Notes under the pieces: model-generated | What the model saw: only the letters and a program-made list of their open reading frames with translations | Databases searched by the model: none | What the model was told of the DNA's origin: nothing | NCBI RefSeq assembly: GCF_013371465.1 | Contig: NZ_JABWDU010000008.1 | Coordinates: forward strand, 186,001 to 250,000 | DNA from: Ensifer oleiphilus | GTDB lineage: Bacteria > Pseudomonadota > Alphaproteobacteria > Rhizobiales > Rhizobiaceae | Direction: 5' to 3' | Length of the DNA: 64,000 nt | Translations under genes and position numbers: made by a program | In this document: positions 8,215-29,594 of the stretch, in pieces | Layout of the letters: the number at the start of each line of letters is the position of its first letter | How positions within the stretch are numbered: the first letter of the stretch is position 1

Positions 8215-9521
8215 ACCAGACTTTCCGCGACCCTAATCCGCCTGCCCATCAGATCGCCGCCATCAATGCCCTCGAAGATCAGCTCATCGACGCTGAAGCC
8301 GATAGCGTTCCCGAGCCTCAGCCGCCAGTCATGCCTCGCGGTGTGGCGCGCTTCGTGCTCGGCGCCAGCCTCGTGCTGATCGCCTTCAACCTGCGCCCAT
8401 TGTTTTCCAGCTTGTCGGTGTTGCTGCCGGAGGTGATGCGCGACACCGACCTTTCGACATCCGGCGCCAGCCTGCTGACAACACTGCCCGTGCTCTGCCT
8501 CGGCCTGTTTGCACCGCTCGCCCCAAAGCTGGCCCAACGCTTCGGCGCCGAACGCACCCTGCTCGGCGCCCTGGCTTTGCTCGTGCTCGGGACAGCCTTG
8601 CGCGGTTTCGGAGCTGTGCCGCTGCTCTTCCTGTCGACTTTCGCCGCTGGCGCCGCCATCGCGATCGGCAACGTCCTGCTTCCCGGCCTCGTCAAACGCG
8701 ACTTTGCCGACAAGGCGGCGATCATGACCGGGCTTTACACCATGGCGCTTTGCGCAGGCGCTGCCGGTGCCGCCGGCCTGACCCTGCCGCTCGAACATGG
8801 GCTGACCGGCTCGTGGTCCGGTGCGCTCGCCATCTGGGCGCTTCCCGCCTTCATCGTCCTGTTGATCTGGACACCGCAGGCGCTCGGCAGCAAGGCGCAG
8901 GTCAGGCACACTGGCTTTCGTGTCACCGGCCTCTGGCGCGATCGTCTCGCCTGGCAGGTCACCCTTTTCATGGGTCTGCAGTCGGCGCTCGCCTATTGCA
9001 TCTTCGGCTGGCTCGCACCCATTCTGAGGGAACGCGGCTTTGACCCCGCGACGGCAGGCGCCATTGTCTCGGTCTCGATCATGACACAGGTCGTCACCTG
9101 CCTGCTGGTTCCGTCCTTCGCCATCAGACGCAAGGACCAGCGCGGCATCAACGTCGCGCTCGTCCTTGCCGCAGTCATCGCGCTGCTCGGCATCCTCTTC
9201 GCGCCGCCATCGACGGTGATCTTCTGGGCCATTCTGCAGGGCTTTGGCCAGGGCGGGCTGATTGCGGTGGCGATGACGCTGATCGTGTTGCGCTCGCCGG
9301 ATTCCCACGTCGCCGCCCATCTCTCGGGCATGGCGCAGGGGGTTGGGTATGTGCTCGCCGCCATCGGCCCGCTGCTCGTTGGGCTCATCCGCGACTGGAC
9401 CGGTAGTTTCGATGCCGCCGCCATCCTGTTCGTGGCGCTCGGCCTCGGCGCTGCGACCATGGGCCTTGGCGCCGGGCGCGCGCTGCATGTCGGCGCGCGA
9501 ACGATCAGGATCGACGGCTGA
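8211..9521 (+). CDS. MFS transporter, CynX/NimT-like
   Basis: The product of 436 residues is a 12-helix major facilitator. The motifs ASLVLIAFNLRPLFSSLSVL, RFGAERTLLGAL and the paired halves match the CynX/NimT cyanate/2-nitroimidazole family. A hydrophilic tail of about 45 residues precedes the first helix. It overlaps the GntR stop (ATGA), so expression is coupled. The cargo is unknown; in this family it ranges from cyanate to aromatic or amino-acid-like compounds. Confidence 0.85.
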   Translation: MNQTFRDPNPPAHQIAAINALEDQLIDAEADSVPEPQPPVMPRGVARFVLGASLVLIAFNLRPLFSSLSVLLPEVMRDTDLSTSGASLLTTLPVLCLGLFAPLAPKLAQRFGAERTLLGALALLVLGTALRGFGAVPLLFLSTFAAGAAIAIGNVLLPGLVKRDFADKAAIMTGLYTMALCAGAAGAAGLTLPLEHGLTGSWSGALAIWALPAFIVLLIWTPQALGSKAQVRHTGFRVTGLWRDRLAWQVTLFMGLQSALAYCIFGWLAPILRERGFDPATAGAIVSVSIMTQVVTCLLVPSFAIRRKDQRGINVALVLAAVIALLGILFAPPSTVIFWAILQGFGQGGLIAVAMTLIVLRSPDSHVAAHLSGMAQGVGYVLAAIGPLLVGLIRDWTGSFDAAAILFVALGLGAATMGLGAGRALHVGARTIRIDG

Positions 9522-9540
9522 ACCTCATCGTTCAGCCGTC
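9513..9540. terminator. Hairpin between convergent MFS and etfA genes
   Basis: Arms 9513-9523 and 9530-9540 form a perfect 11-bp stem with a 6-nt loop. The left arm overlaps the stop codon of the MFS gene at 9521. It lies between convergent genes and should serve both. Confidence 0.7.
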
Positions 9541-9555
9541 GCTTCTGAAGTCTGT

Positions 9556-10485
9556 TCAGGAAGCTCGCTCCATTTCCGGCAGGGCTTCGAAGAGGTCGGC
9601 AACGAGGCCGTAGTCGGCGACCTGGAAGATCGGTGCCTCCTCGTCCTTGTTGATGGCGACGATGACCTTCGAATCCTTCATGCCCGCCAGGTGCTGGATC
9701 GCACCGGAGATGCCGCAGGCGATGTAGAGATCGGGCGCGACCACCTTGCCGGTCTGGCCGACCTGCCAGTCGTTCGGGGCGTAGCCGGCGTCGACCGCAG
9801 CGCGCGATGCGCCGACGGCAGCACCGAGCTTGTCGGCAACCGGCAGGATAACTTCCTTGAACTTTTCCGCCGAACCGAGCGCCCGACCACCAGAGATGAT
9901 GATCTTGGCCGAGGTCAGTTCCGGGCGATCCGACGACGACAGCGCGTCGGCAACGAAGGTCGACAGACCCGGATTGGCAACAGCCGCAATCGTTTCGACC
10001 GAGGCAGAGCCGCCTTCGGAGGCCGAGGCGAACGAGGCGGTGCGCACGGTGATGACCTTCTTGGCTTCGCTCGTCTGCACCGTCTGGATGGCGTTGCCGG
10101 CATAGATCGGCCGTTTGAAGGTGTCGGAAGAGACAACTTCGGTGATTTCCGAGACCTGGACGACATCCAGAAGCGCTGCAACCCGCGGCAGCACGTTCTT
10201 GCCGACCGAGGTGGCGGCGGCAAGGATGGTGTCGTAGCTGCCGGCCAGCGAAACGATGAGGGCTGCCAAGGGCTCGGCCAGATTGTTGGCAAGGCTTGTG
10301 TCCTCGGCCACCAGCACCTTGGCAACGCCGGAAAGCTTGGCGGCCTGGTCGGCGGCCGCCTTGGCGCCGGCACCGGCGACCAGCACATGCACGTCGCCGC
10401 CAATCTTGGTGGCCGCCGTCAGCGTCTTTGCGGTCTGGTCGGAAAGGTGGCTGCCGTCGTGATCAGCCAGAAGCAGAATAGCCAT
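9556..10485 (-). CDS. etfA: Electron transfer flavoprotein alpha subunit
   Basis: The 309-residue protein is ETF alpha (FixB family). The C-terminal FAD-binding domain holds [13 protein letters not shown] and later [19 protein letters not shown], the classic ETF-alpha signature. With EtfB it accepts electrons from flavin dehydrogenases, such as the dimethylglycine/sarcosine-type dehydrogenase encoded upstream, and passes them to ETF-ubiquinone oxidoreductase. It follows etfB by 23 bp in the same operon and has an AGGGAG ribosome-binding site. It is probably the housekeeping ETF, or a dedicated copy for this cluster. Confidence 0.95.
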
Positions 10486-10508
10486 GATGAAATCTCCCTT
10501 TCCTGAAC

Positions 10509-11273
10509 TTACAATACGCCGGCTTCGACTTTGAGCTTCTCGACCAGCTCGGCCACCGACTTGACCTTGATGCCGGCCTTGCGGCCTTCCGGCTCCTCGG
10601 TCTTCAGCACCTTCAGCCGTGCCGTGGTGTCGACGCCGAAATCGGCCGGGCTCTTCTTGTCGAGCGGCTTCTTCTTCGCCTTCATGATGTTGGGCAGCGA
10701 GGCATAACGCGGCTCGTTGAGGCGCAGGTCGGTGGTGACCACGGCCGGCAGCTTGATGTCGATTGTCTGCAGGCCGCCATCGACCTCACGTGTCACCCTT
10801 GCTGTGCTTTCTGGCGCCTTGCCATCGCCGATCTCGACCTTGGAGGCAAAGGTGCCCTGGGCCCAGCCAAGCAAGGCCGACAACATCTGGCCGGTCTGGT
10901 TCGAATCGTCGTCGATCGCCTGCTTGCCGACGATGATCAGGCCGGGCTGTTCGACTTCTGCCACACCCTTGACGATCTTGGCGACAGCCAGCGGCTCGAC
11001 CTGGTCTTCGGTCTCGACCAGGATCGCCCGGTCGGCGCCCATGGCAAGTGCGGTGCGCAACGTCTCTTCGGCCTTGGCCGGACCCACCGATACGACCACG
11101 ACCTCGTCGGCCTTGCCGGCTTCCTTCAGCCGCAGCGCCTCTTCCACCGAGATCTCGTCGAACGGGTTCATCGACATCTTCACATTCGCCAGCTCGACGC
11201 CCGAGCCATCCGCCTTCACCCGGATCTTGACGTTGTAGTCAACCACCCGCTTAACCGTCACAAGTATTTTCAT
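10509..11273 (-). CDS. etfB: Electron transfer flavoprotein beta subunit
   Basis: The 254-residue protein is ETF beta (FixA family), binding AMP and forming a heterodimer with EtfA. It starts [19 protein letters not shown], contains [18 protein letters not shown] and the signature [20 protein letters not shown]. The start at 11273 is an ATG with AAGGG 7 bases upstream; a TTG at 11279 would add two residues but has no support. It precedes etfA and follows the DmgDH-like gene by about 40 bp, suggesting one transcript of the dehydrogenase and its electron acceptor. Confidence 0.95.
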
Positions 11274-19087: not shown

Positions 19088-19927
19088 TTACTGAACCAGG
19101 CGCGGCGCGCCGGTTTCGGCCGCCGTCCCATCAAGGCCGTAAGACTTCAGGACGTTGACGATGGTGCCGTCGGCGTGCATCGCTTCGATCTGGGCATCCA
19201 GTGCGACACCGAGTTCCTTGGCATTGAACGAATAGGGGAACGCTGCCTGAGCGGCCTCCTTGGTCGCCCTCACCCGATCGTCGGAGGCTGCGACCTTGAC
19301 CTTGACGTCCTTGAGAGCGCCGCTCTTTTCAGCAACGACGCCCGTCGAATAGCCGTCCACCGCCACGTCGATACGGCCGGCGAAGAGGTCCTGCTGCATG
19401 TTGACCGAGTTCGGATAGAGCTTCAGCTTGGAACCGAGCATGGTCTTCAGGTCAGTCACCCAGAGATAGCCCTGAACCGTGCCGACCTGCTTGCCGTCGA
19501 GGTCGCCGACGGTGGCAAAACCATCCTTGGAATAGATCGCCATCTGGTCGGTGTAGAGCGGCGCCGAGAGGTTCATGACCTTGGCGCGCTCGGCCGTGCG
19601 GTACCAGTCGCCGGTCGCAATATCGGCCTGACCCGAAAGCACGTACTGGATGGCAGCGGCCGGATCGACGGCAACGGCCTTCACCTTCAGGCATTCGCGC
19701 TTGGCGAATTCAGCGGCGAGATCGCCGTCGATGCCTTTCATGTTGCCGGCGTCATCGAGATAGGAATGGGGGACGTAGGTTGTCACGGCAACCGTGAGCG
19801 TGCCCTCTTCGATGGTGGCGAAGGTGTGCTTCGGAGTGCAGTCCTGCGCGAACGCCAGCTGGCTCGATACGAGGACGCCGGCGATGCCGGTCAGCAGAAG
19901 GCGGGTTTTGGTCGCAAATGTGGTCAT
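19088..19927 (-). CDS. Polar amino-acid ABC transporter substrate-binding protein
   Basis: The protein of 279 residues has an N-terminal signal peptide (cut probably after LAFA, about residue 27) and a family-3 periplasmic binding fold, with GTLTVAVTTYVPHSYLDDAG near the N-terminus and GIDGDLAAEFAKRE typical of amino-acid binders. It delivers substrate to the two permeases and ATPase encoded just upstream. The neighbouring racemase, reductase and FAD oxidase hint that the ligand is an amino acid or derived amine; the sequence alone does not give the specificity. Confidence 0.9.
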   Translation of the reverse strand: MTTFATKTRLLLTGIAGVLVSSQLAFAQDCTPKHTFATIEEGTLTVAVTTYVPHSYLDDAGNMKGIDGDLAAEFAKRECLKVKAVAVDPAAAIQYVLSGQADIATGDWYRTAERAKVMNLSAPLYTDQMAIYSKDGFATVGDLDGKQVGTVQGYLWVTDLKTMLGSKLKLYPNSVNMQQDLFAGRIDVAVDGYSTGVVAEKSGALKDVKVKVAASDDRVRATKEAAQAAFPYSFNAKELGVALDAQIEAMHADGTIVNVLKSYGLDGTAAETGAPRLVQ

Positions 19928-19954
19928 GCCTGAATGCCCTTTCGTGGTGTTGGT

Positions 19955-20617
19955 TCAGCGTTGCGCATAGGATCCGGCGCGTTTTTCGACATGGCTGACG
20001 AGCAGCGCGGCGGGGATGGAGATCGAGGCGTAGAGAACGCCGGCAGCAAGCAGCGCCGGGAAGTAACGGAAGGTGTTCGAGCCGATTTCATAGGCGCGGC
20101 TGACAAGTTCCGGCAGCGCGATGGTGAAGCAGAGCGACGTGCCCTGGAAGATCAGGATCGAGAAGGCGAGCAGCGCCGGGAGAGCAACGCGCAACCCCTG
20201 CGGCAAGAGGACATAACGCAAAGCATCCAGCCGGTTGAGACCGATCGCAACCGCTGCCTCGCGCTGGCCATGCGGGATCGACTGCAGGCTGGCGCGAATG
20301 ATCTCGCTGGAATAGGCGCCGGTGTTCCAGGCGAGCGCGATGACGGCTGCCGTGAAAGACCCGAGCGTCAGGCCTGTGGTCGGCAGGCCGAAATAGATGA
20401 ACTGCAACAGCACCAGCGCCGGAGCGCCACGGCCAACCTCGACCAGGAACAAGGCAAGTATCTTCGTCAACCGGCTCTTGGCAAGGACGCCAAGGGCCAG
20501 CAACAGACCGAACGGAATGCCGATCAAGAGGCTGAGCGCCGTCACCTGCAAGCTGATCGAGAGACCCGACAGCAGATCGGGCAGCCAGGCGGAGAGTTCT
20601 TCGTAGCTCGGCAACAT
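19955..20617 (-). CDS. Polar amino-acid ABC transporter permease
   Basis: The 220-residue protein is an inner-membrane permease of the His/Glu/Gln family (HisM type), with the EAA loop seen as GQREAAVAIGLNRLDALRYVL (split here as GQREAAVAIGLNR then LDALRYVLLPQG). Its ATG at 20617 shares one base with the stop of the preceding permease gene, so translation is coupled. A longer open frame upstream is read-through into that gene and is not used. Pairs with the second permease to form a heterodimeric channel. Confidence 0.9.
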   Translation of the reverse strand: MLPSYEELSAWLPDLLSGLSISLQVTALSLLIGIPFGLLLALGVLAKSRLTKILALFLVEVGRGAPALVLLQFIYFGLPTTGLTLGSFTAAVIALAWNTGAYSSEIIRASLQSIPHGQREAAVAIGLNRLDALRYVLLPQGLRVALPALLAFSILIFQGTSLCFTIALPELVSRAYEIGSNTFRYFPALLAAGVLYASISIPAALLVSHVEKRAGSYAQR

Positions 20618-21261
20618 CAGCGCGCCACCTTTGCTTGCAGATAACTGTCGGCGACGCGCGACAGCCAGGCGACCGGCAGGCTGAGCAGGATGTAGAACAT
20701 GCCGACCAGTGCGAAGACTTCGAGACCGCGAAACGTCAACTGCGACAGCTGGTTTCCCTGGAAGGCGAGCTCGCTGACCCCGATGGTCGAGGCCACCGCC
20801 GTTTCCTTCATCAGGCCGATGAGGTAGCTCGCGGCCGATGGCAGAGCGACGCGAAACGCCTGCGGCGCGACAACGTCCGTCAGGGTGGACCAGCGGCCGA
20901 GGTTCAGCGCCAACGACGCCTCCCATTGCCCGAAGTGGATGGAGGCGAGTGCGCCGCGGTAGATTTCAGCCATGTTGGCTGCCGCGATCAGTCCCAGCCC
21001 GGCGATAGCCGCATTGAAGGGGCTGATCGGAAAGACGCTCATTCCAAGGCCGAAGAAGATGATGAACAGCCAGAGGATCGGCGGAATACCGCGTACGATC
21101 TGGATGAAGATCATGGCCACGAACCGCACCGGCAGGATGCGGCTTTGCCTGGCCGCCACCAGCGGCACCCCGAGCACGGCACCGGCGAGGAACGCGCCGA
21201 GCGTCAAGGCGACCGTCCAGGGGAGCCCGCGCAGGATGGCGAAGAGATCGGCTGTGCTCAT
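20617..21261 (-). CDS. Polar amino-acid ABC transporter permease
   Basis: The 214-residue protein is the partner permease with about five membrane segments and the EAA coupling loop [18 protein letters not shown]. It begins [19 protein letters not shown]. The start ATG overlaps the ATPase stop (ATGA at 21258-21261), showing tight operon organisation. Confidence 0.9.
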
Positions 21262-22106
21262 CGGTCGTGCACCGCGCGAAGGAAGCGTTTGGTGCGTTCC
21301 TGCTGCGGATTGCGCATGACGTCCTGCGATGGGCCTTTCTCGATAATCTTGCCATCGGCCATGATCATCACCGTGTCGGAGACATTCTCGGCAAAGCTCA
21401 TTTCATGGGTGACGACGATCATCGTCATGCCGGTTTCGGCCAGCTCCCGCATGACGGCGAGGACTTCGAGGCCGAGTTCCGGATCAAGGGCCGACGTGGG
21501 TTCGTCGAAGAGCATGACGTCAGGATCGAGCGCCAGCGCCCTGGCGATTGCGATGCGTTGCTGCTGGCCACCGGAACAGCGGCCGGGAAATTGCTCCGCC
21601 TTGTCGGCCAGGCCGACGCGGCTCAGCAGTTGCATCGACCGTTCGTCGGCATTTTTGCGGCTGCGGCCGAGGGCACGTTCCTGTGCCAGGCTGACATTGC
21701 GCAGCACCGTCATGTGCGGAAAGAGATTGAAGGACTGGAAGACCATGCCGACGCTGCGACGCAACGTCGAAAGCTCCGACCGGCCGGCGGCTGCGGCGGC
21801 ATTCAGCGAGATGTCGCCGATGGTGACATGGCCGCCATCCGGCGGCTCCAGATAGTTGATGCAGCGCAGCAGCGTGCTCTTGCCCGAGCCGCTCGGACCG
21901 ATGATCGCCAGCACCTCTCCCGGCATCACCTCCAGGTCGATACCGTCGAGCACCGTGTGGTTGCCGTAGTGTTTGCTCAGCTTGTCCAGCTTGATGAGGG
22001 GCTTTCGCGCCTGACCCTTTTCGGAAGGCGCTCCTTTGGCGGCCAGAGCATCGTCCTCAGTCATTGTCGGTTTGCCACTCCCCAAATGCAAGACAGCGCC
22101 ATCCAT
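21258..22106 (-). CDS. Polar amino-acid ABC transporter ATP-binding protein
   Basis: The ATPase has Walker [11 protein letters not shown]-loop [11 protein letters not shown], signature [15 protein letters not shown], Walker [13 protein letters not shown] and the switch His in VVTHEMSF, all intact. It energises the two downstream-encoded permeases. The start is uncertain: 22106 has GGAG 10 bases upstream and is used here, and an ATG at 22064 would remove 14 residues ahead of a 40-residue N-terminal extension that most family members lack. It is the first gene of the importer operon and is preceded by an operator-like repeat. Confidence 0.9.
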
Positions 22107-22808
22107 GACGATTTCGCTCCATTGCAGGCACGGCACGGCTCGGCTCCACGCCGGGCAAGCCGCGTCCTGTCGCTGAATTTGTTTGATGTATGCCGTGCGC
22201 CCCAAGGCGAACGACTGTCGTTCCCGTTGTTTTGTTGTGGATCACCATAACGATTCGATGCGGCCTCGGCAGACGACAAAAATTGCAGGGCAGCATAACT
22301 TGGAGTTATGATCTCGACGGGTGGGTCCCGCCAATTGCCACGGAAGCCGGACGAATGTGTGAGGTTTGAAACACCTGCCGAATGCCACGGGTGATAAAGG
22401 CAACCCGTTCATGCAACCAAAAAAGGTTAATGCCGGCGGTCGGCGCTGTTGGCAAGATAACACTATTTTAGCCATGACCGATGAGCAAAGCCATGAGATC
22501 GCTAGATATCGCTATGCTTACCGAGTCGCTCAAAAATTGCCTGCCTCGCCGGCAAGTGATAGAAAGAGCTATAAAATTGCAACCGAACAGAGAAGGTGCC
22601 TGTGCTCGTACACTCGGTTCGAACTGTCGGCTTTGATGGTCGGCCGCACCACCTGCGGGCAGTATTGACGGTAACACTTTGTCCGATAGCCATGCGTGAG
22701 AACAGACTGAAATAGAGGGCGGTGCCATGCTTGCAGTTCAAGCGGTTCGGGCACAGCAATGTTCGCAAGCGGTCCGAACCAAACCGCAACGGAAAGGGAA
22801 AGGCTAGG
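22107..22808. promoter_or_regulatory. Intergenic region with LysR-type operator CATAA-N7-TTATG
   Basis: This 700-bp region separates the importer operon (minus) from the GGDEF-EAL gene (plus). At 22294-22310 CATAACT-TGG-AGTTATG is a perfect 7-bp inverted repeat with the same CATAA-N7-TTATG core as the site at the LysR start codon. It is about 190 bp upstream of the ATPase start. No convincing gene or RNA structure is seen in the rest; the small open frames lack coding character. Confidence 0.5.
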
Positions 22809-24488
22809 ATGTCAAGCACTGACTCGACGTTGTCTGCTGCATCTCCCGTGGACGATACCGTCCTTGGCAATACTGAAGAGGTCATCTCGGTTTACGACGA
22901 GGCCCTGCATCTGGTCGCTTCCTCGGTCGCTCTTCAACGGGCCTACGAGGTGGCTGGGCTGGTCGATGCAACACTCTGGCATGTCTATCCCGAACTGCTA
23001 GAGCCGGCCTCGAAGGCGATGGCCGAGTCCGTTCTTGCCAATGGCGTTCCCCGCAGCATCGAAATCTTCGACGCGCCCAACCGGTCACGGCGAACACTGC
23101 TGGTCTTTCGCGCCGGCCAGGGCGTCGGCGTTATCGAGACCGATGGAGCATCGGTGAGGCGGGAAGTTGCAAGTCAGGGCGAGAACGAACGCGCACTGCT
23201 GCTTCATCAGGCGACCCACGATGCCCTGACCGGATTGCCCAATCGTCGGCAATTCAGCGACGACCTGCGAAACGTGCTGCCGGCCGTTCATGAGAAGAAG
23301 CCGGCGCTGATGCAGATCGACCTCGACGATTTCAAGCCGATCAATGACACGCTTGGTCACGGGGCCGGAGACGCGGTGCTTCGCATGGCGGCCGAACGCA
23401 TACGCGGCGTTTTGCAAGACGGCGAAGTTGCCTACCGGCTGGCGGGCGACGAATTCGCGATCATCCAGCGGGACGCCGAGCAGCCGGCCGAAGCCGAGCG
23501 GCTCGCCAATGCGGTGGTCAACGCCTTCAAGGAGCCGTTCACGGTCGATGGCATATCGGCATTCGTCGGCGCAAGCATCGGCATTGCCATCGCACCGCCG
23601 GACGGAAACGAGGGCGAGCAACTGATGAAGGCGGCCGACATCGCTCTTTATGCCGCCAAAAAAGAAGGCAGAGGCCGCGCCAAAACCTTCAGCCGATCTA
23701 TGCTGATCGTGCTGGAACAACGGGAAATGCTGCGCCGAAGCCTGCGAACCGCGCTCAGGGAGAACCAGTTTTCCATCGAGTATCAGCCGCTGGTGAAGCC
23801 CCCCTTCACCATTGTCGGCTTCGAGGCACTGGTGCGCTGGCGTCATCCGCTGGTTGGCATCATTCCGCCCAATGTCTTCGTGCCGATGGCAGAATCCGAT
23901 GGTCTGATGAGCGAGATCGGCCAATGGGTGCTGGAGCAGGCCTGCCGCCAGGCGACCACATGGCCCTCCCACTTCACCGTGGCCGTCAACCTGTCTCCGG
24001 CGCAGTTCCTTCACGACGGTTTCACCGACCGCGTATCACAGACGCTCGATATGGTCGGCTTGCGGGCAGACCGGCTCGAACTGGAAGTCACCGAATCGGT
24101 TCTGCTCGAGAAGACCACCAACAATCTCGACACGCTCAATACGCTGAACGTGCTCGGCATTCAGATCTCGCTCGACGATTTCGGCACCTACTATTCGTCG
24201 CTGAGTTATCTGAAGAACTTCCCGTTCGACACGATCAAGATCGACCGCTATTTCATCAAGGATCTCGAGAATGACGAGAAGAGCCAGGTGATCGTTCGCT
24301 CGATCATCGCGCTCGCGCACGGGCTGGGGATGGCGGTGACGGCGGAAGGCGTCGAGACGCGGGCCCAGGCCCTGTGGCTGGAACGCGAAGGCTGCGATCG
24401 CTTGCAGGGCTATTTCCTCGGCGTTCCGATGCCGCCCAACGCCATCGACGCCTATTTGCGTCAATCATCGTCAATGGAAGTTTCGTAA
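22809..24488 (+). CDS. GGDEF-EAL protein with PAS-like N-terminus
   Basis: The protein of 559 residues has an N-terminal PAS-like sensor region (about 20-140), a GGDEF domain (about 150-310) and an EAL domain (about 320-555). The GGDEF active site is AGDEF (residues 212-216), which can be active or act as a GTP sensor, and no RxxD inhibitory site is visible. The EAL side has FEALVRW (339-341), NLSPAQF, ELEVTES, IKIDRYF and AEGVET, so c-di-GMP hydrolysis is likely. One variation is DDFGTYYSS where DDFGTGYSS is usual. The start at 22809 has AAAGG upstream. It is the first gene of a same-strand series with PP2C and STAS-like genes and may be their output. Confidence 0.88.
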   Translation: MSSTDSTLSAASPVDDTVLGNTEEVISVYDEALHLVASSVALQRAYEVAGLVDATLWHVYPELLEPASKAMAESVLANGVPRSIEIFDAPNRSRRTLLVFRAGQGVGVIETDGASVRREVASQGENERALLLHQATHDALTGLPNRRQFSDDLRNVLPAVHEKKPALMQIDLDDFKPINDTLGHGAGDAVLRMAAERIRGVLQDGEVAYRLAGDEFAIIQRDAEQPAEAERLANAVVNAFKEPFTVDGISAFVGASIGIAIAPPDGNEGEQLMKAADIALYAAKKEGRGRAKTFSRSMLIVLEQREMLRRSLRTALRENQFSIEYQPLVKPPFTIVGFEALVRWRHPLVGIIPPNVFVPMAESDGLMSEIGQWVLEQACRQATTWPSHFTVAVNLSPAQFLHDGFTDRVSQTLDMVGLRADRLELEVTESVLLEKTTNNLDTLNTLNVLGIQISLDDFGTYYSSLSYLKNFPFDTIKIDRYFIKDLENDEKSQVIVRSIIALAHGLGMAVTAEGVETRAQALWLEREGCDRLQGYFLGVPMPPNAIDAYLRQSSSMEVS

Positions 24489-24626
24489 AAAAGCCGGAGT
24501 GAGGCTGTGGGGTCGGCCGCCGGGTCAAGGTGCGCCGGTCTCTGACCAGTTTGCGTGCCTGATAAATCAGCCTAGAAAGTGCCTGTGGGCCGTGGCAAAG
24601 TTCCACAGATGGAGGACGAAGCAAGT

Positions 24627-25145
24627 ATGGACGTCGGTAACAGTGTGCCAGCGGAAGCGGCCTTCGAGCCCTTGCTCCAATTTGAAATGGAGATGGGGAC
24701 GTTTCTTTCGGAGTGGCAGCATTGCGACCATGTCTCCACCTATCTCGCCCGCATGATCAGCCACAACAGGACTGATCCGGTCCGGCATTCGAATTTTTTC
24801 TCGTCGGCGCTCAACGAGCTGCTCGAAGTGTCCTTTCGCGGGGGAACCTCCAGCGGTCAAATCGGTCTTTCGATCTACCGCCATGGACCGATCGAGCGGG
24901 TTCAGATCACATTTCCATGCCCGGCCGAACAGGTACCGTTCTACCGCGAGGCCGTGCAGAAGATCGATCGCAGCGATGCGCATGCCCGCTATCTCGATTC
25001 CATCTCGACCGACATGGCACCCAGTCGCGAATCCGTCCTGCTCGACCTCGCCATCAATTTCGACGCGAGCATCCGTATCGAGGAAAGCACGTCGCCCGCG
25101 GTCACGCTGATCGTCGACTTGCCGCTGGAAGGGCTCGTGAGTTGA
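24627..25145 (+). CDS. GHKL-like ATPase/kinase-type protein, slr1658-like
   Basis: The product is about 172 residues. It has an N-box-like motif, NELLEVSFR, preceded by helix SNFFSSAL, which aligns in position with the [10 protein letters not shown] of the slr1658-type protein encoded downstream. No membrane segment is present. The ATP-lid glycine motifs are weak, so activity is uncertain. The start at 24627 has GGAGG 11 bases upstream; an ATG at 24609 is possible. Its stop overlaps the TTG start of the STAS-methyltransferase gene, so both are translated together. By analogy to SiaB and SpoIIAB it could phosphorylate the STAS domain of its neighbour; this is an inference. Confidence 0.6.
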   Translation: MDVGNSVPAEAAFEPLLQFEMEMGTFLSEWQHCDHVSTYLARMISHNRTDPVRHSNFFSSALNELLEVSFRGGTSSGQIGLSIYRHGPIERVQITFPCPAEQVPFYREAVQKIDRSDAHARYLDSISTDMAPSRESVLLDLAINFDASIRIEESTSPAVTLIVDLPLEGLVS

Positions 25146-26320
25146 GCGTCGCAGGACTTTCCCCCAACTTCAAGGTGGCGTTCGACGCCAACAGCCAGGT
25201 GTTTTCGCTCGCCGGCGTCATCCGGCCGCGGTCCGTTGACGAGATCGCCGACAGCATCGCCATGCTCAGGCAGGCGATCGACGACGTTCGCGGCGTGCTT
25301 TACGTCGACGTGAAACGCCTGATCCAGATGAACAACACCGCATTCCATGCCTTCGTGCGGGTAGCCCTCGACGCCTGCCGGGCGCGCGCGGACCTGCGCA
25401 TGGTGATCGTGACGTCGAGCGTCGTCGGCTGGACCACGCGGATGTTCGGACACCTCAACCAGATCGAACCGCAGATTACGGTCGAGGTCTACGATTCGAC
25501 CTTCTATCCCGGGCAGAGCTTCGTCGAGGACACAAGCTTCATCCCGATACTGAGAACGCAGACGAAGATGACCTGGCGCCACGAGCGTTCGATCCTGCCG
25601 CGACACGGGCTGCGCCCGGGCATCGCAATGGCCGACGTCTGTTGCGGAATCGGCGACTTTGCCGTTCTCGTCCAGAAGGAGTTTCAGCCGGCGCGAATCG
25701 TCGCTCTCGATCATTCCAAGGCGAGCCTCGCCTATGCTCGGGAGGTGGCGACCAATTTCGGCATCACCGATATCGAGTACACCTACGGCGATGCGTCGGA
25801 AATGCTTTTGGAGGACAACCAGTTCGACTTTGTCAGCTGCCGCCACTCGCTGCAGATCTTCAACGAACGCGAGCTTCTCCTGAAGGAACTTTACCGGATC
25901 TGCAAACCGGGCGGACGTGTCTACATCACCAATGAAAAGAACTCGCACTGCCTCGGTGAGCCGCGCGCCCAGAGCATCCAGTGGACCTATAACGAGGTCG
26001 CCAAGCTGTTCAGCCATTTCGACATGGACGTCGAACTCGGGCCAAAAAGCCGACGCTACCTCGCAGACGCGGGTTTCGACGACATCCTGGTGGAATCCTT
26101 CATGGTGACGAACCTCGACGGCGACCCGCAGGACTTCGCCGATGTGATCACCGCCTGGGAAAACGTCTATGCCGGCGAAATGGCGGTGCGGCGCGGCGAC
26201 ACGCCCGAGTTCATCGAACGTTTCCGACAGGGCTTCCGAGACCATATATTTGCCGCCCTTCATCCGAAGGGCTACGCGGGCTGGCCGATCTGGGTCGCAT
26301 CGGGGCGCAAGCCGACATGA
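25142..26320 (+). CDS. STAS-like (slr1659-type) domain fused to class I SAM methyltransferase
   Basis: The 392-residue protein starts at a TTG (25142) that overlaps the preceding stop and has GAAGGG 8 bases upstream; no ATG or GTG fits better. Residues 1 to about 125 resemble the STAS-like protein encoded at 29256, with VLYVDVKRLIQMNNTAF at the place of its [15 protein letters not shown]; the phosphoacceptor Ser is replaced by Asn-Asn-Thr. Residues about 160-380 form a SAM methyltransferase, with motif I VCCGIGDFA and the later CRHSLQIFNERELLLKELYR. NCBI-type names call similar proteins UbiE-like, but here the operon context is signalling. The methyl acceptor is unknown. Confidence 0.75.
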   Translation: MSVAGLSPNFKVAFDANSQVFSLAGVIRPRSVDEIADSIAMLRQAIDDVRGVLYVDVKRLIQMNNTAFHAFVRVALDACRARADLRMVIVTSSVVGWTTRMFGHLNQIEPQITVEVYDSTFYPGQSFVEDTSFIPILRTQTKMTWRHERSILPRHGLRPGIAMADVCCGIGDFAVLVQKEFQPARIVALDHSKASLAYAREVATNFGITDIEYTYGDASEMLLEDNQFDFVSCRHSLQIFNERELLLKELYRICKPGGRVYITNEKNSHCLGEPRAQSIQWTYNEVAKLFSHFDMDVELGPKSRRYLADAGFDDILVESFMVTNLDGDPQDFADVITAWENVYAGEMAVRRGDTPEFIERFRQGFRDHIFAALHPKGYAGWPIWVASGRKPT

Positions 26321-28677
26321 ATGAACCGAGTGCATCAAGCTCCCGTCTCGGGTTGAGGTCTTTCCGCGCCAAATTCGTGCTCGTTGTCGGCGGCGCCGTG
26401 CTGTTCGATCTGCTGGTCACAGGCGGCCTTGCGCTTTGGAATGTGCAAAGACTGTCGCGGGATGCCGCAACGGAAGTCGGCCAAGGCCTGCAGAAAGCCA
26501 ACCAGGACTATATGCAGTCCTACGCAGAATCGACCGCCGCACGGGTCAACCTGCTTCTTGGCCAGGTCCACACCGACGTCGGAACGCTCGCAGGCGTTTT
26601 GCAGTCGCAGATTGATCGGCCGGTGCGCAAGTTCCAGGTCGGCGAGGCTCTTGCCCGCGGCGCGCCAGGTTCTGTCACTGTCGTCTACGATGAGAAAGGC
26701 GGATGGGCGCAGAACCTGCCCGGCCCGCCTTCGGTCGTCAGCGTCTGGGGATATCTTCTCGGACCGGACCGTCGCCCGCTTCCCGACGTCCAGACCGAGA
26801 TCGAGAACAGCGCGGTGCTCGACCTCGTTGCCCCGAGCCTGCTGGAGAGTGGCCGGTCCAAGCTGCAGATGTATTACATCGGCCCCAAGGAGCGGCCGAT
26901 TTTCAGGACCGCACCCTATACCGATCAGGCCCAGACCTTCGATCGGCTTTATCCCGGCCATAACGAGGCGGAATTCTGGACGTTCTTCTTCCCTGGCATC
27001 TACGAATCCTGGGAGCAATGGGCCAAAGACCCGAGCCTCAGGCCGGTGCCGAACGATGTGACGCAGACGGCGCCCTACACCGATGCGATCACCGGCAAGC
27101 TCATTGTCAGCTTCTTCCAGCCGCTGTGGTCGCGCGACCGAAAGGCCGTGGCAGGGGCTGCCGGCGCCGATATCACGCTCGACCAGCTGGCGGAGGTGGT
27201 ACAGAACGTCAAGGTCGCCGAGAGCGGATTCGGTTTCCTGGCAATGTCCGATGGCAATGTGCTGGCCATCAACCCGGCCGGCGAAAAGACGATCGGTCTG
27301 CAGACATCAAGTGACACGAGCACGCAAGGCGTGACGGGTGCCGACCGTTCGCTGCGCAAGAGCGCCCAGGTCGCCATCGCGCAATTGCCGCTCGGGCAGG
27401 ACGGGGTGATCCAGCGCGTCATGCTCGACGAGGCCGGGGAGAAGGTTCCCTATCTCGTTCTTCTGAAGCAGCTGCAGCCGGAGAATTTCTGGATGTCTGG
27501 CCCGGTGCGCAAGGAAACGATGTCGCTTGGTATCGTGGTTCCGGAACGCGAAATCTATGCGTCGCTGTTTGCCGCGCAAGCCGGCATCTCACAGGCGACG
27601 AACCGCATCCTCGCCTACCAGATCCTGGCCCTGCTTGCGTCGTTGCTGTTTGTGACAGCGGCGGTGTTCGGCATCTCCAAGCGCGTGACCGCCGGCATCA
27701 GTGCGCTTGCCGGCGCCGCCAAGCGCATCCAGGCCAAGGACTATTCGGTCCGCGTGCCGATCTCAACGCGCGACGAAGTGGGCGAAGCCGGCACGGCCTT
27801 CAACCGCATGGCCGAGGAGATCAGCTTCCACACAGAAAACCTCGAGCACCTCGTCGAAGAGCGCACCAAGCAGATCGAGGAAGCCAACCAGCAGATCTCT
27901 GCCCTCAACACGCAGCTGCGCAGCGAAAACCTGCGGCTCGGCGCCGAGCTGGCGGTCGCCCGGCAGATCCAGATGATGGTATTGCCGAAGGCTGGCGAGC
28001 TCGACGAGATCGCAAACCTGGAGATCGCCGCCTATATGAGGCCCGCCGACGAAGTGGGCGGGGACTACTACGATGTGCTGAGTGACGGCACGCGGTTGAA
28101 GATCGGAATCGGCGACGTCACCGGGCACGGCCTTGAGAGCGGCGTCCTGATGCTGATGGTGCAATCGGTCGCGCGCGCCTTGCAGGAAGCCGGCGACATG
28201 GATCCCAATCAGTTCCTCAACCGCCTCAACCGTGCAATCTACAAAAATATCGTGCGTACCAATACCGACAAGCACCTTTCCCTGGCATTTCTCGACTATG
28301 ATGGCGGCCGCCTGACGCTTTCGGGGCAGCACGAGGAACTGATTGTCGTTCGCAACGCCCAAGAGGTGGAGCGCATCGACACGATGGATCTCGGTCTGCC
28401 GATCGGCCTGGAGCCCGATATCTCGCGGTTTGTCGCCACGCGCGAAGTCGCTTTTGCCCAGGGTGATATGATCATCCTACACACGGACGGGGTAACGGAA
28501 GCCGAGAACGCGGCTGGCGAACTGTTCGGCATCCAGCGGCTCTGCGACAGTGCGCGGCAGTTTTATGGACGCAGCGCCGAAGAAGCGAAATCAGGGATTC
28601 TCGAGGACCTGATGGCGCATATCGGCAAGCAGAAAATTCACGACGACATTACCCTCGTGGTCATGAGACACAGGTGA
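26317..28677 (+). CDS. Membrane dCache-HAMP-PP2C (SpoIIE-type) phosphatase
   Basis: The protein of 786 residues has an N-terminal transmembrane helix (about 20-43), a large periplasmic sensor of dCache type, a second helix (about 431-455), a HAMP domain (about 455-510), a coiled coil and a SpoIIE-type PP2C domain (about 550-785). Metal ligands sit in PADEVGGDYYDV (Asp near 583), GDVTGHG and HTDGVTEA. It is the SiaA/RsbU-like phosphatase of a partner switch and should dephosphorylate a STAS protein when a periplasmic ligand is sensed. Its ATG overlaps the preceding stop (ATGA), and the two slr1658/slr1659-type genes follow. Confidence 0.88.
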   Translation: MNEPSASSSRLGLRSFRAKFVLVVGGAVLFDLLVTGGLALWNVQRLSRDAATEVGQGLQKANQDYMQSYAESTAARVNLLLGQVHTDVGTLAGVLQSQIDRPVRKFQVGEALARGAPGSVTVVYDEKGGWAQNLPGPPSVVSVWGYLLGPDRRPLPDVQTEIENSAVLDLVAPSLLESGRSKLQMYYIGPKERPIFRTAPYTDQAQTFDRLYPGHNEAEFWTFFFPGIYESWEQWAKDPSLRPVPNDVTQTAPYTDAITGKLIVSFFQPLWSRDRKAVAGAAGADITLDQLAEVVQNVKVAESGFGFLAMSDGNVLAINPAGEKTIGLQTSSDTSTQGVTGADRSLRKSAQVAIAQLPLGQDGVIQRVMLDEAGEKVPYLVLLKQLQPENFWMSGPVRKETMSLGIVVPEREIYASLFAAQAGISQATNRILAYQILALLASLLFVTAAVFGISKRVTAGISALAGAAKRIQAKDYSVRVPISTRDEVGEAGTAFNRMAEEISFHTENLEHLVEERTKQIEEANQQISALNTQLRSENLRLGAELAVARQIQMMVLPKAGELDEIANLEIAAYMRPADEVGGDYYDVLSDGTRLKIGIGDVTGHGLESGVLMLMVQSVARALQEAGDMDPNQFLNRLNRAIYKNIVRTNTDKHLSLAFLDYDGGRLTLSGQHEELIVVRNAQEVERIDTMDLGLPIGLEPDISRFVATREVAFAQGDMIILHTDGVTEAENAAGELFGIQRLCDSARQFYGRSAEEAKSGILEDLMAHIGKQKIHDDITLVVMRHR

Positions 28678-28681
28678 GCAG

Positions 28682-29242
28682 ATGACGACTTTGTACGGAC
28701 CGGCGGACCTGACCAGGGGCGCCAATGAAAGCGTGACGAGGCTCCGTCTTTACGACGGCCAGCTCAACCTCAGCTGGAAACATTGCGCTATCGCCTCGGA
28801 CTTTGTCGCCGAGCTGATCGCCATGCGCTACCGCGGCTCGCGCAACGCCTACAAGGAAGTCCGGCACAATATCGGCTACCTGACCAACGAACTGGTCGAA
28901 AACGCGGTGAAGTTCCGCGCCGCCGGCGGCATCGTGGTCGAGGCTTCGATCGACGACAGCAATTTCCGTGCAAAGGTGTCGAACTTCGTCGATGGCGAGA
29001 CGGCGGCACGCTTCCAGAATCTGCTGTCCGAGATCACCACGAGTGACCCGGGCGACCTTCTGATCGAACGCATCGAAGCCAATGCAATCGGCACCGGCAA
29101 AAGCGGATCGGGACTTGGTCTTTTAACACTGATGAGCGATTATGGCGTCCGTTTCGCATGGGTTTTCGGACCCAACAGCGACAGCGGAGACGTCGCGCTT
29201 GAGACTTATGCCTCGATCCCCGTCCCCGATATCTCGAACTGA
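28682..29242 (+). CDS. slr1658-superfamily regulator (GHKL-like, SiaB-type)
   Basis: The 186-residue protein has an N-box [10 protein letters not shown] (about residues 67-76) and a late [19 protein letters not shown] region that matches a G-box and ATP-lid of the histidine-kinase-like fold. Families called slr1658 or DUF6272, and SiaB kinases, have this layout. It starts only 4 bp after the phosphatase stop. The partner is probably the STAS-like protein encoded next; it would phosphorylate it and the PP2C would remove the phosphate. Activity is not proven by the sequence. Confidence 0.75.
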
Positions 29243-29255
29243 TGAGCAGGTGAAT

Positions 29256-29594
29256 ATGGAAATCAAGGACGAGGACTACCGCGTTTGGTCAGAGGGCAAC
29301 GACATCCACTTTGAGGGAACCATGCGGCTTCCCGGCACGGAAGCCTATGCCCCGATCTTCACCCTGGCCATGGGCGTGCTTGAGGCCGAGCCCGACCGCA
29401 TGACGATCGACCTGGGGGAACTGCAGTTCCTGAACTCGTCGGGGATCAACTTGCTCGCCAAGCTGACGATCGAGGCCCGCAACCGACCGAACGTGCAATT
29501 GACGGTGCGTGGAACCTCCGAGATTCCGTGGCAGTCAAAGTCGTTGCCCAACCTCAAGAAGCTCCATCCCGGCATTGACCTCAGGCTGAACTGA
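29256..29594 (+). CDS. slr1659-superfamily STAS-like regulator
   Basis: The 112-residue protein has a STAS-type beta-alpha fold with [18 protein letters not shown], in which SS at about residues 62-63 is the expected phosphorylation site, as in SpoIIAA and SiaC-type antagonists. The start at 29256 is chosen because the region upstream overlaps the preceding gene and AGGTG precedes it. It is the last gene of the cassette and is followed by a hairpin. Its likely role is a phospho-switch between kinase-like protein and phosphatase. Confidence 0.75.

Follow-up and report, generated by a model that had tools for sequence, protein, structure and literature searches.

The window analyzed here, a stretch of 64,000 nucleotides of Ensifer oleiphilus DNA (RefSeq assembly GCF_013371465.1, contig NZ_JABWDU010000008.1, positions 186,001 to 250,000 of the forward strand), carries within positions 22809-29594 a cluster of six genes, all on the + strand, which combines a membrane sensor phosphatase with two homologous pairs of kinase-like and STAS proteins, a methyltransferase fused to one of the two STAS domains, and a GGDEF-EAL protein. 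Judging by its residues, the pair made up of a kinase and a free STAS protein looks live, and the second pair does not; the latter does not look like simply another kinase with its phospho-STAS. We tentatively interpret the cluster as a two-tier partner switch with the methyltransferase as its conserved output, in which a SiaABC-like phospho-switch would act via the free STAS protein on an inert pseudokinase clamp; this reading is a serious candidate, somewhat short of probable. Slightly less confidence goes to the wider proposal that, after duplication of a kinase/STAS pair, one copy lost the phospho-chemistry and came to serve as an ATP-independent clamp, with the phospho-switch governing a small-molecule methyltransferase, an arrangement that would be conserved across Alphaproteobacteria.

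Six genes of one orientation had been proposed in a reading of the window made from its letters and open reading frames (the sequence-only reading), and they were recovered here with domain matches. The tight spacing claimed for most of them holds for five: the STAS-methyltransferase gene starts with TTG and overlaps the stop of the pseudokinase gene (TTGA), the sensor phosphatase gene overlaps the STAS-methyltransferase gene by ATGA, and gaps of 4 bp and 13 bp separate the phosphatase gene from the kinase gene and the kinase gene from the free STAS gene, respectively. It does not hold for the GGDEF-EAL gene, which is situated 138 bp upstream of these five. A second possible in-frame ATG for the pseudokinase gene was noted at 24609. 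A promoter scan returned no promoter-like site, and terminator-like sites showed no excess (5 against a mean of 6.4 in shuffled sequences); neither result has a bearing on the operon limits.

The two pairs belong to the slr1658 and slr1659 superfamilies, for which the NCBIfam models NF047703 and NF047705 each have a cut-off of 100 bits. The kinase (28682..29242, +, 186 residues), with an intact N-box and an SGLGL glycine motif, scored 171.6 bits against the former, and the free STAS protein (29256..29594, +, 112 residues), with N-S-S-G at the usual phospho-site, scored 137.2 bits against the latter. The members of the second pair are sub-threshold relatives: the pseudokinase (24627..25145, +, 172 residues) reached 38.6 bits for slr1658 (E value 7e-10), and residues 9-113 of the STAS-methyltransferase (25142..26320, +), in which a STAS domain (about residues 9-116) precedes a class I S-adenosylmethionine (SAM) methyltransferase (about 137-392), reached 33.2 bits for slr1659 (E value 5e-8). 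The search of these families suggested by the sequence-only reading thus placed one pair firmly inside them and the other at their margin. In a direct profile comparison, the pseudokinase matched the kinase over 137 columns (E value 2e-8) and the STAS part of the STAS-methyltransferase matched the free STAS protein over 96 columns (E value 2.4e-8), while fold comparison assigned the pseudokinase a SiaB/SpoIIAB-like GHKL fold; it is therefore a diverged slr1658 relative, and the fused STAS domain is a diverged slr1659 relative. Searching the source genome (G000; 6.76 Mb, 32 contigs, 99.94% complete, Ensifer/Sinorhizobium-like) at an E value limit of 0.01 gave two matches for each family, all within the cluster, which therefore carries two kinase/STAS pairs. 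Pfam matches of the live pair were sub-threshold (HATPase_c, 16.9 bits for the kinase, cut-off 26.4; STAS_2, 19.5 bits for the free STAS protein, cut-off 29.2), and DUF6272 (PF19788) had no match in this genome, an uninformative result given that 14 controls were likewise without a match.

Residue conservation was followed in an orthologue set of 94 loci, consisting of 80 from genome contigs (the best 80 of 249 relatives, the remaining 169 lying outside the set) and 14 further genome regions. The pseudokinase and STAS-methyltransferase were present in 92 of the 94, both being missing from L139 and L140; removing two loci that duplicate others left 90 distinct loci for the counts. In GHKL kinases, the N-box Asn binds Mg-ATP and the ATP lid has a glycine-rich motif. 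The kinase has both features, with E70, N74, and S143 in 90/90 loci and G144 and G146 in 89/90, and the protein at 24627 lacks them. At the place of N74 the latter has Val (73 loci), Thr (8), Ile (6), Leu (2), or Met (1) and never Asn (0/90), followed directly by a two-residue deletion in the alignment, and at the two ATP-lid glycine places Gly occurs in 1/90 (L100) and 8/90 loci. Of the two N-box kinase-like proteins described in the sequence-only reading, the one at 28682 stands; the one at 24627 retains the N-box Glu and has Val for the Asn in this window, and with Asn missing throughout the set the idea of two kinases is not supported. Similarly, the free STAS protein has N60, S61, S62, and G63 in 90/90 loci, and for the STAS-methyltransferase 56/90 loci have Ser or Thr at the aligned position pair, the other 34/90 having neither residue there. 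Position 66 of this protein is Thr in the window; most Rhizobiaceae share the residue, most Mesorhizobium have Ala instead, and eight deep-branching loci (L097-L101, L136-L138) have Val. In four comparisons, the ratio of nonsynonymous to synonymous substitution rates was 0.09-0.14 for the pseudokinase against 0.03-0.14 for the other five genes; the pseudokinase is therefore being maintained.

The methyltransferase looks intact and is the best-conserved part of the module. It matched Methyltransf_11 (PF08241) with 67.4 bits (cut-off 21.2), which places it among class I SAM methyltransferases, and its SAM-site residues D165, G169, G171, and D190 were found in 90/90 loci. Mean pairwise identity among 93 rows, made up of the window and 92 loci, reached 83% in the methyltransferase part; the STAS part had 66%, the pseudokinase 56%, the kinase 65%, the free STAS protein 69%, and the PP2C domain of the sensor phosphatase 76%; over the 84 rows with a GGDEF-EAL protein, the latter averaged 68% and the methyltransferase part 85%. 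It shares its fold and SAM-site residues with small-molecule class I enzymes of the UbiE/BioC type (3mgg, UbiG, TmtA, OxaG), from which it differs by the N-terminal STAS domain, and from the fold the methyl acceptor is probably a small molecule. The protein was not filed as UbiE because UbiE/MenG models gave at most 68.5 bits against cut-offs of 158-420. In the fold search with the whole protein, methyltransferases filled the match list. A role in anti-phage defence was considered and rejected, the protein matching only methyltransferase types (mad2 at residues 151-295 and, weakly, MTase_II).

The sensor phosphatase (26317..28677, +, 786 residues) is composed of a dCache-like periplasmic region, a HAMP domain, and a PP2C/SpoIIE domain. 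Pfam matches to SpoIIE/PP2C (140 bits) and HAMP (48 bits) were above cut-off, and that to dCache_1 (32.6 bits, cut-off 45) was below it; among sequences of known structure, the protein matched dCache sensor chains and the PP2C-type chain 6k4e.

The five genes for the pseudokinase, STAS-methyltransferase, sensor phosphatase, kinase, and free STAS protein are inherited together. This core was found in order in all 80 of the best 80 genome-contig loci, a result beyond chance that favours a module and that answers the possibility, raised with the sequence-only reading, that the genes are not co-inherited. It accompanied every STAS-methyltransferase locus read, from S. meliloti pSymB to a likely member of the Rhodospirillales, and the phosphatase/kinase/STAS trio was present in all 90 distinct loci, with the PP2C match of L075 split over two frames. 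An automatic order-and-gap rule was passed by 89/90; the failure, L097, reflects a STAS-methyltransferase match over-extended into the adjoining frame, and separate coordinates there show no overlap. This constancy bears on a rival explanation, in which the pseudokinase and the STAS-methyltransferase would form a fixed heterodimer, the former being an obligate structural subunit, and the live switch would act on another target, the grouping reflecting co-expression only. In the loci read, the genes for these two proteins overlap or lie next to each other, and phospho-chemistry residues are missing from both products, as such a heterodimer would have it, but a live trio of the same two families in every locus is more than co-expression needs, and we regard this explanation as rather unlikely.

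The arrangement suggests that a methylating enzyme is under the control of the signal. In the two-tier mechanism, which is inferred in its activities, interactions, direction of control, signal, and methyl acceptor alike, the membrane PP2C protein would sense a periplasmic signal and dephosphorylate the free STAS protein, which the kinase would phosphorylate on S61 or S62. In the second tier, the pseudokinase would serve as an ATP-independent clamp on the STAS domain of the STAS-methyltransferase. With the sensor active, the unphosphorylated free STAS protein could compete for the pseudokinase, or titrate the kinase, and this competition or titration would change the activity or location of the methyltransferase. 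A W-x-H-C element is present in both the live and degenerate groups, and on the simplest reading the degenerate copy may have kept the binding surface while losing the chemistry, which would allow the unphosphorylated free STAS protein to compete with the STAS-methyltransferase for the pseudokinase. The GGDEF-EAL protein would be a lineage-specific second output. If this is correct, the target of partner switching is a metabolic enzyme rather than a sigma factor, cyclase, or secretion or biofilm regulator; the switch would be wired to it through a pseudokinase, widening the range of targets known to be controlled in this way, and the module would be an example of how a signalling pair, once duplicated, finds a new use when catalysis is lost.

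Several observations count against this mechanism. The N-box Glu of the pseudokinase (E64, aligned with E70 of the kinase) is retained in 90/90 loci, and part of the site therefore remains. The loci that keep the second lid glycine are exactly the eight deep-branching ones, as if the site had been eroded stepwise. According to the accessible text of PMC7647112, a Glu, E61, is the predicted catalytic residue of SiaB, and given E64, this prediction, and the deep-locus glycine, the pseudokinase may still bind nucleotide. T66 is kept in the STAS-methyltransferase of this window, which might therefore still be phosphorylated by the live kinase. T66 and the retained N-box Glu speak for the model of the sequence-only reading, with two active kinases and both STAS modules phospho-switched, one acting on cyclic di-GMP (c-di-GMP) and the other on the methyltransferase. 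Ser or Thr in 56/90 loci agrees with it as well, and both modules may be phosphorylated in this window; the 34 loci with neither residue count against this as a conserved mechanism, as does a second kinase-like protein without the N-box Asn in every locus, and the model as a whole is left with a slim chance. Moreover, pairwise-identity correlations between core genes (r 0.79-0.96) reflect shared ancestry and are no evidence of contact; they were rejected as a partner test, all core gene pairs being correlated. Finally, two observations concern the c-di-GMP arm: the GGDEF-EAL gene stands beside the core in 81/90 loci, which fits c-di-GMP output in Rhizobiaceae and Phyllobacteriaceae, and in L139, from a genome of the same phylum and another class, a gene for a SiaD-like cyclase neighbours the canonical kinase, STAS, and PP2C genes.

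The GGDEF-EAL protein (22809..24488, +, 559 residues, N-terminal region unannotated) matched EAL with 241.5 bits and GGDEF with 152.4 bits in Pfam, both above cut-off. By eye, it has the cyclase motif D-x7-N-x8-D-x21-R-x-AGDEF as well as the EAL phosphodiesterase motif residues, and these columns are mostly conserved among the loci. In the genome-contig loci its gene was directly upstream and on the same strand in 79/80, with the match split over two frames in L093. The nine distinct loci without it directly upstream are L035, which has one at a distance of about 1 kb and in the opposite orientation, and the eight deep-branching stretches, in which none was found and all of which retain the methyltransferase. 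From its absence in the deep lineages, the GGDEF-EAL protein is probably an accessory, lineage-specific component and c-di-GMP probably not the core output, so that the c-di-GMP switching arm of the earlier model now looks peripheral. According to another alternative, c-di-GMP would be the main output, as in SiaABCD, with the free STAS protein controlling the GGDEF-EAL protein and the methyltransferase arm auxiliary. The frequent position of the GGDEF-EAL gene next to the core and the largely conserved motifs of its product agree with this, as does the SiaABCD-like cluster of L139 (4488-9353). There, an slr1658 gene that exceeds the cyanobacterial equivalog cut-off and an slr1659 gene adjoin a GGDEF gene resembling SiaD (145.7 bits, cut-off 290), with a PP2C gene nearby; a gene of periplasmic binding-protein type also belongs to the cluster. 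No STAS-methyltransferase match was found on the 16-kb contig of L139; an FkbM-type gene, unrelated and on the opposite strand (9790-10692), was the only methyltransferase gene found nearby. Retention of the other five genes in the nine loci and the 138-bp separation in the window run counter to this alternative, which we consider improbable. An identification of the GGDEF-EAL protein with an assayed S. fredii protein (PMC8546604, accessible text) is not claimed, since that text allows no mapping.

Among known systems, SiaABCD of Pseudomonas aeruginosa comes closest (PMC7278518 and the accessible portions of PMC7647112 and PMC8457831). There, SiaD is activated by dephosphorylated SiaC, whose phosphorylation in turn depends on SiaB and SiaA (PMC7278518). 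The likeness noted in the sequence-only reading is upheld, the live trio comprising the same kinds of parts: a membrane HAMP-PP2C phosphatase, a SiaB-fold kinase, and a STAS-like target with an L-N-(T/S)-S site, with a GGDEF enzyme nearby. By eye, SiaC T68, the phospho-residue within LNTSS in the accessible text of PMC7647112, aligns with S61 of the free STAS protein. In contrast to SiaABCD, our module has an apparently inert second kinase/STAS pair and a methyltransferase fusion, both without counterpart there as that reading had also stated, and a seemingly dispensable GGDEF-EAL protein in place of the cyclase. Scores fell below the cut-offs of the SiaA equivalog NF038263 (134.9 bits over the HAMP-PP2C part of the sensor phosphatase, cut-off 700), the SiaB family NF038262 (18.8 bits for the kinase, cut-off 85), and the SiaD equivalog NF038266 (99.4 bits for the GGDEF part, cut-off 290), and no SiaC model appeared among the Pfam and NCBIfam matches of the free STAS protein up to an E value of 1. 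We class the module as a variant of partner switching and not as a member of SiaABCD.

The kinase and free STAS protein are members of the slr1658/slr1659 regulators, with the pseudokinase and fused STAS domain diverged below those models. Synechocystis cells with slr1658 disrupted recovered less well from iron limitation and expressed pgr5 more strongly (Zer et al. 2018, as cited in the accessible part of PMC7555055), and the accessible literature on slr1658/slr1659 gave no biochemical mechanism for slr1658. SpoIIAB/SpoIIAA and RsbW/RsbV share with the module the kinase-like protein fold, shown here for the pseudokinase, and a Ser-bearing STAS protein, and differ in that here a methyltransferase replaces the sigma factor and a catalytically degenerate pair is added. 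Campylobacterota clusters of PP2C, stas_STYK, STAS, and c-di-GMP enzyme genes resemble the module in that genes for a PP2C protein with a periplasmic sensor, a kinase, and a STAS protein neighbour one for a c-di-GMP enzyme; the accessible portion of PMC9239204 mentions neither a methyltransferase nor an inert second pair. In the accessible literature on slr1658/slr1659, on STAS with methyltransferase and PP2C, and on pseudokinases with STAS, nothing describing the module was found, as judged for the last two subjects mainly by titles and the opening lines of abstracts; the STAS-domain review PMC8256260 leaves methyltransferase, SiaC, fusion, slr, and multi-domain unmentioned, and no paper was found for the S. 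meliloti module under the assumed gene names SMb20447-SMb20452. Annotation hides this module, so far overlooked in nitrogen-fixing soil bacteria: two annotated records, which differ in their flanks, list an EAL protein, a 'ubiquinone biosynthesis methyltransferase UbiE' (the pseudokinase), a methyltransferase, a SpoIIE phosphatase, an ATP-binding protein, and a hypothetical protein (the STAS protein). The UbiE name is a propagated misannotation, since the pseudokinase of the window is of GHKL fold and matched no methyltransferase domain. Relatives of the pseudokinase bear this name in public records at L150:2946-3464 and L151:2928-3443 and in many further proteins.

The STAS-methyltransferase was detected in 12/297 genomes of the order sample and 4/385 of the class sample, the source genome being included in both counts, and the distribution is therefore patchy. 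All five genes were seen in the 15 distinct sample genomes; in G023, G187, and G281 they came from two stretches lying apart on a single contig. A named protein at 98% identity makes the Rhodospirillales the probable source of L136, with which L137 and L138 share their genus; a relative 76% identical to the L136 protein in a metagenome-assembled genome labelled Gammaproteobacteria indicates that the family may reach beyond Alphaproteobacteria. Plasmid records searched with tblastn (E value limits of 1e-60 for the STAS-methyltransferase and 1e-3 for the kinase) gave 120 records for the former and 119 for the latter in the same rhizobial genera (Sinorhizobium 80/78, Rhizobium 24/24, Ensifer 9/9, Aminobacter 6/6, and Phyllobacterium 1/1), with the kinase also in one cyanobacterial Kovacikia record; the two Sinorhizobium records making up the difference may lack the kinase. 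All six genes are present on pSymB of S. meliloti 1021, at about 458.8-465.6 kb, and a methyltransferase match was obtained in S. meliloti 2011. Both are laboratory strains, which makes the module open to direct testing. S. meliloti GR4 has STAS-methyltransferase matches on two plasmids (NC_019848.2 and NC_019849.2), and Ensifer aridi LMR001 bears two copies of the module, L022 and L035, the latter without GGDEF-EAL directly upstream.

A second SpoIIE/PP2C gene on the strand opposite to the core was located nearby in four of six deep loci scanned (L097:10649-11785, L098:3236-4447, L099:6314-7207, and L136:5616-6593); the neighbouring genes scanned in L100 and L101 included none, and L137 and L138 showed weak phmmer matches at a similar place. 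The second PP2C gene of L097 resembles part of RssB (66 bits, below cut-off). Between the second PP2C gene and the core, L097 (9266-10534) and L098 (4757-5758), which belong to one genus, carry a GPP34 (Golgi phosphoprotein 3-like) gene, and L099 has a gene of the type VI secretion TssA/VasJ kind (8290-10065) close to the module. In the window itself, the cluster is preceded on the - strand (19088-22205) by what is, by sequence, a gene set resembling a polar amino-acid ATP-binding cassette (ABC) transporter.

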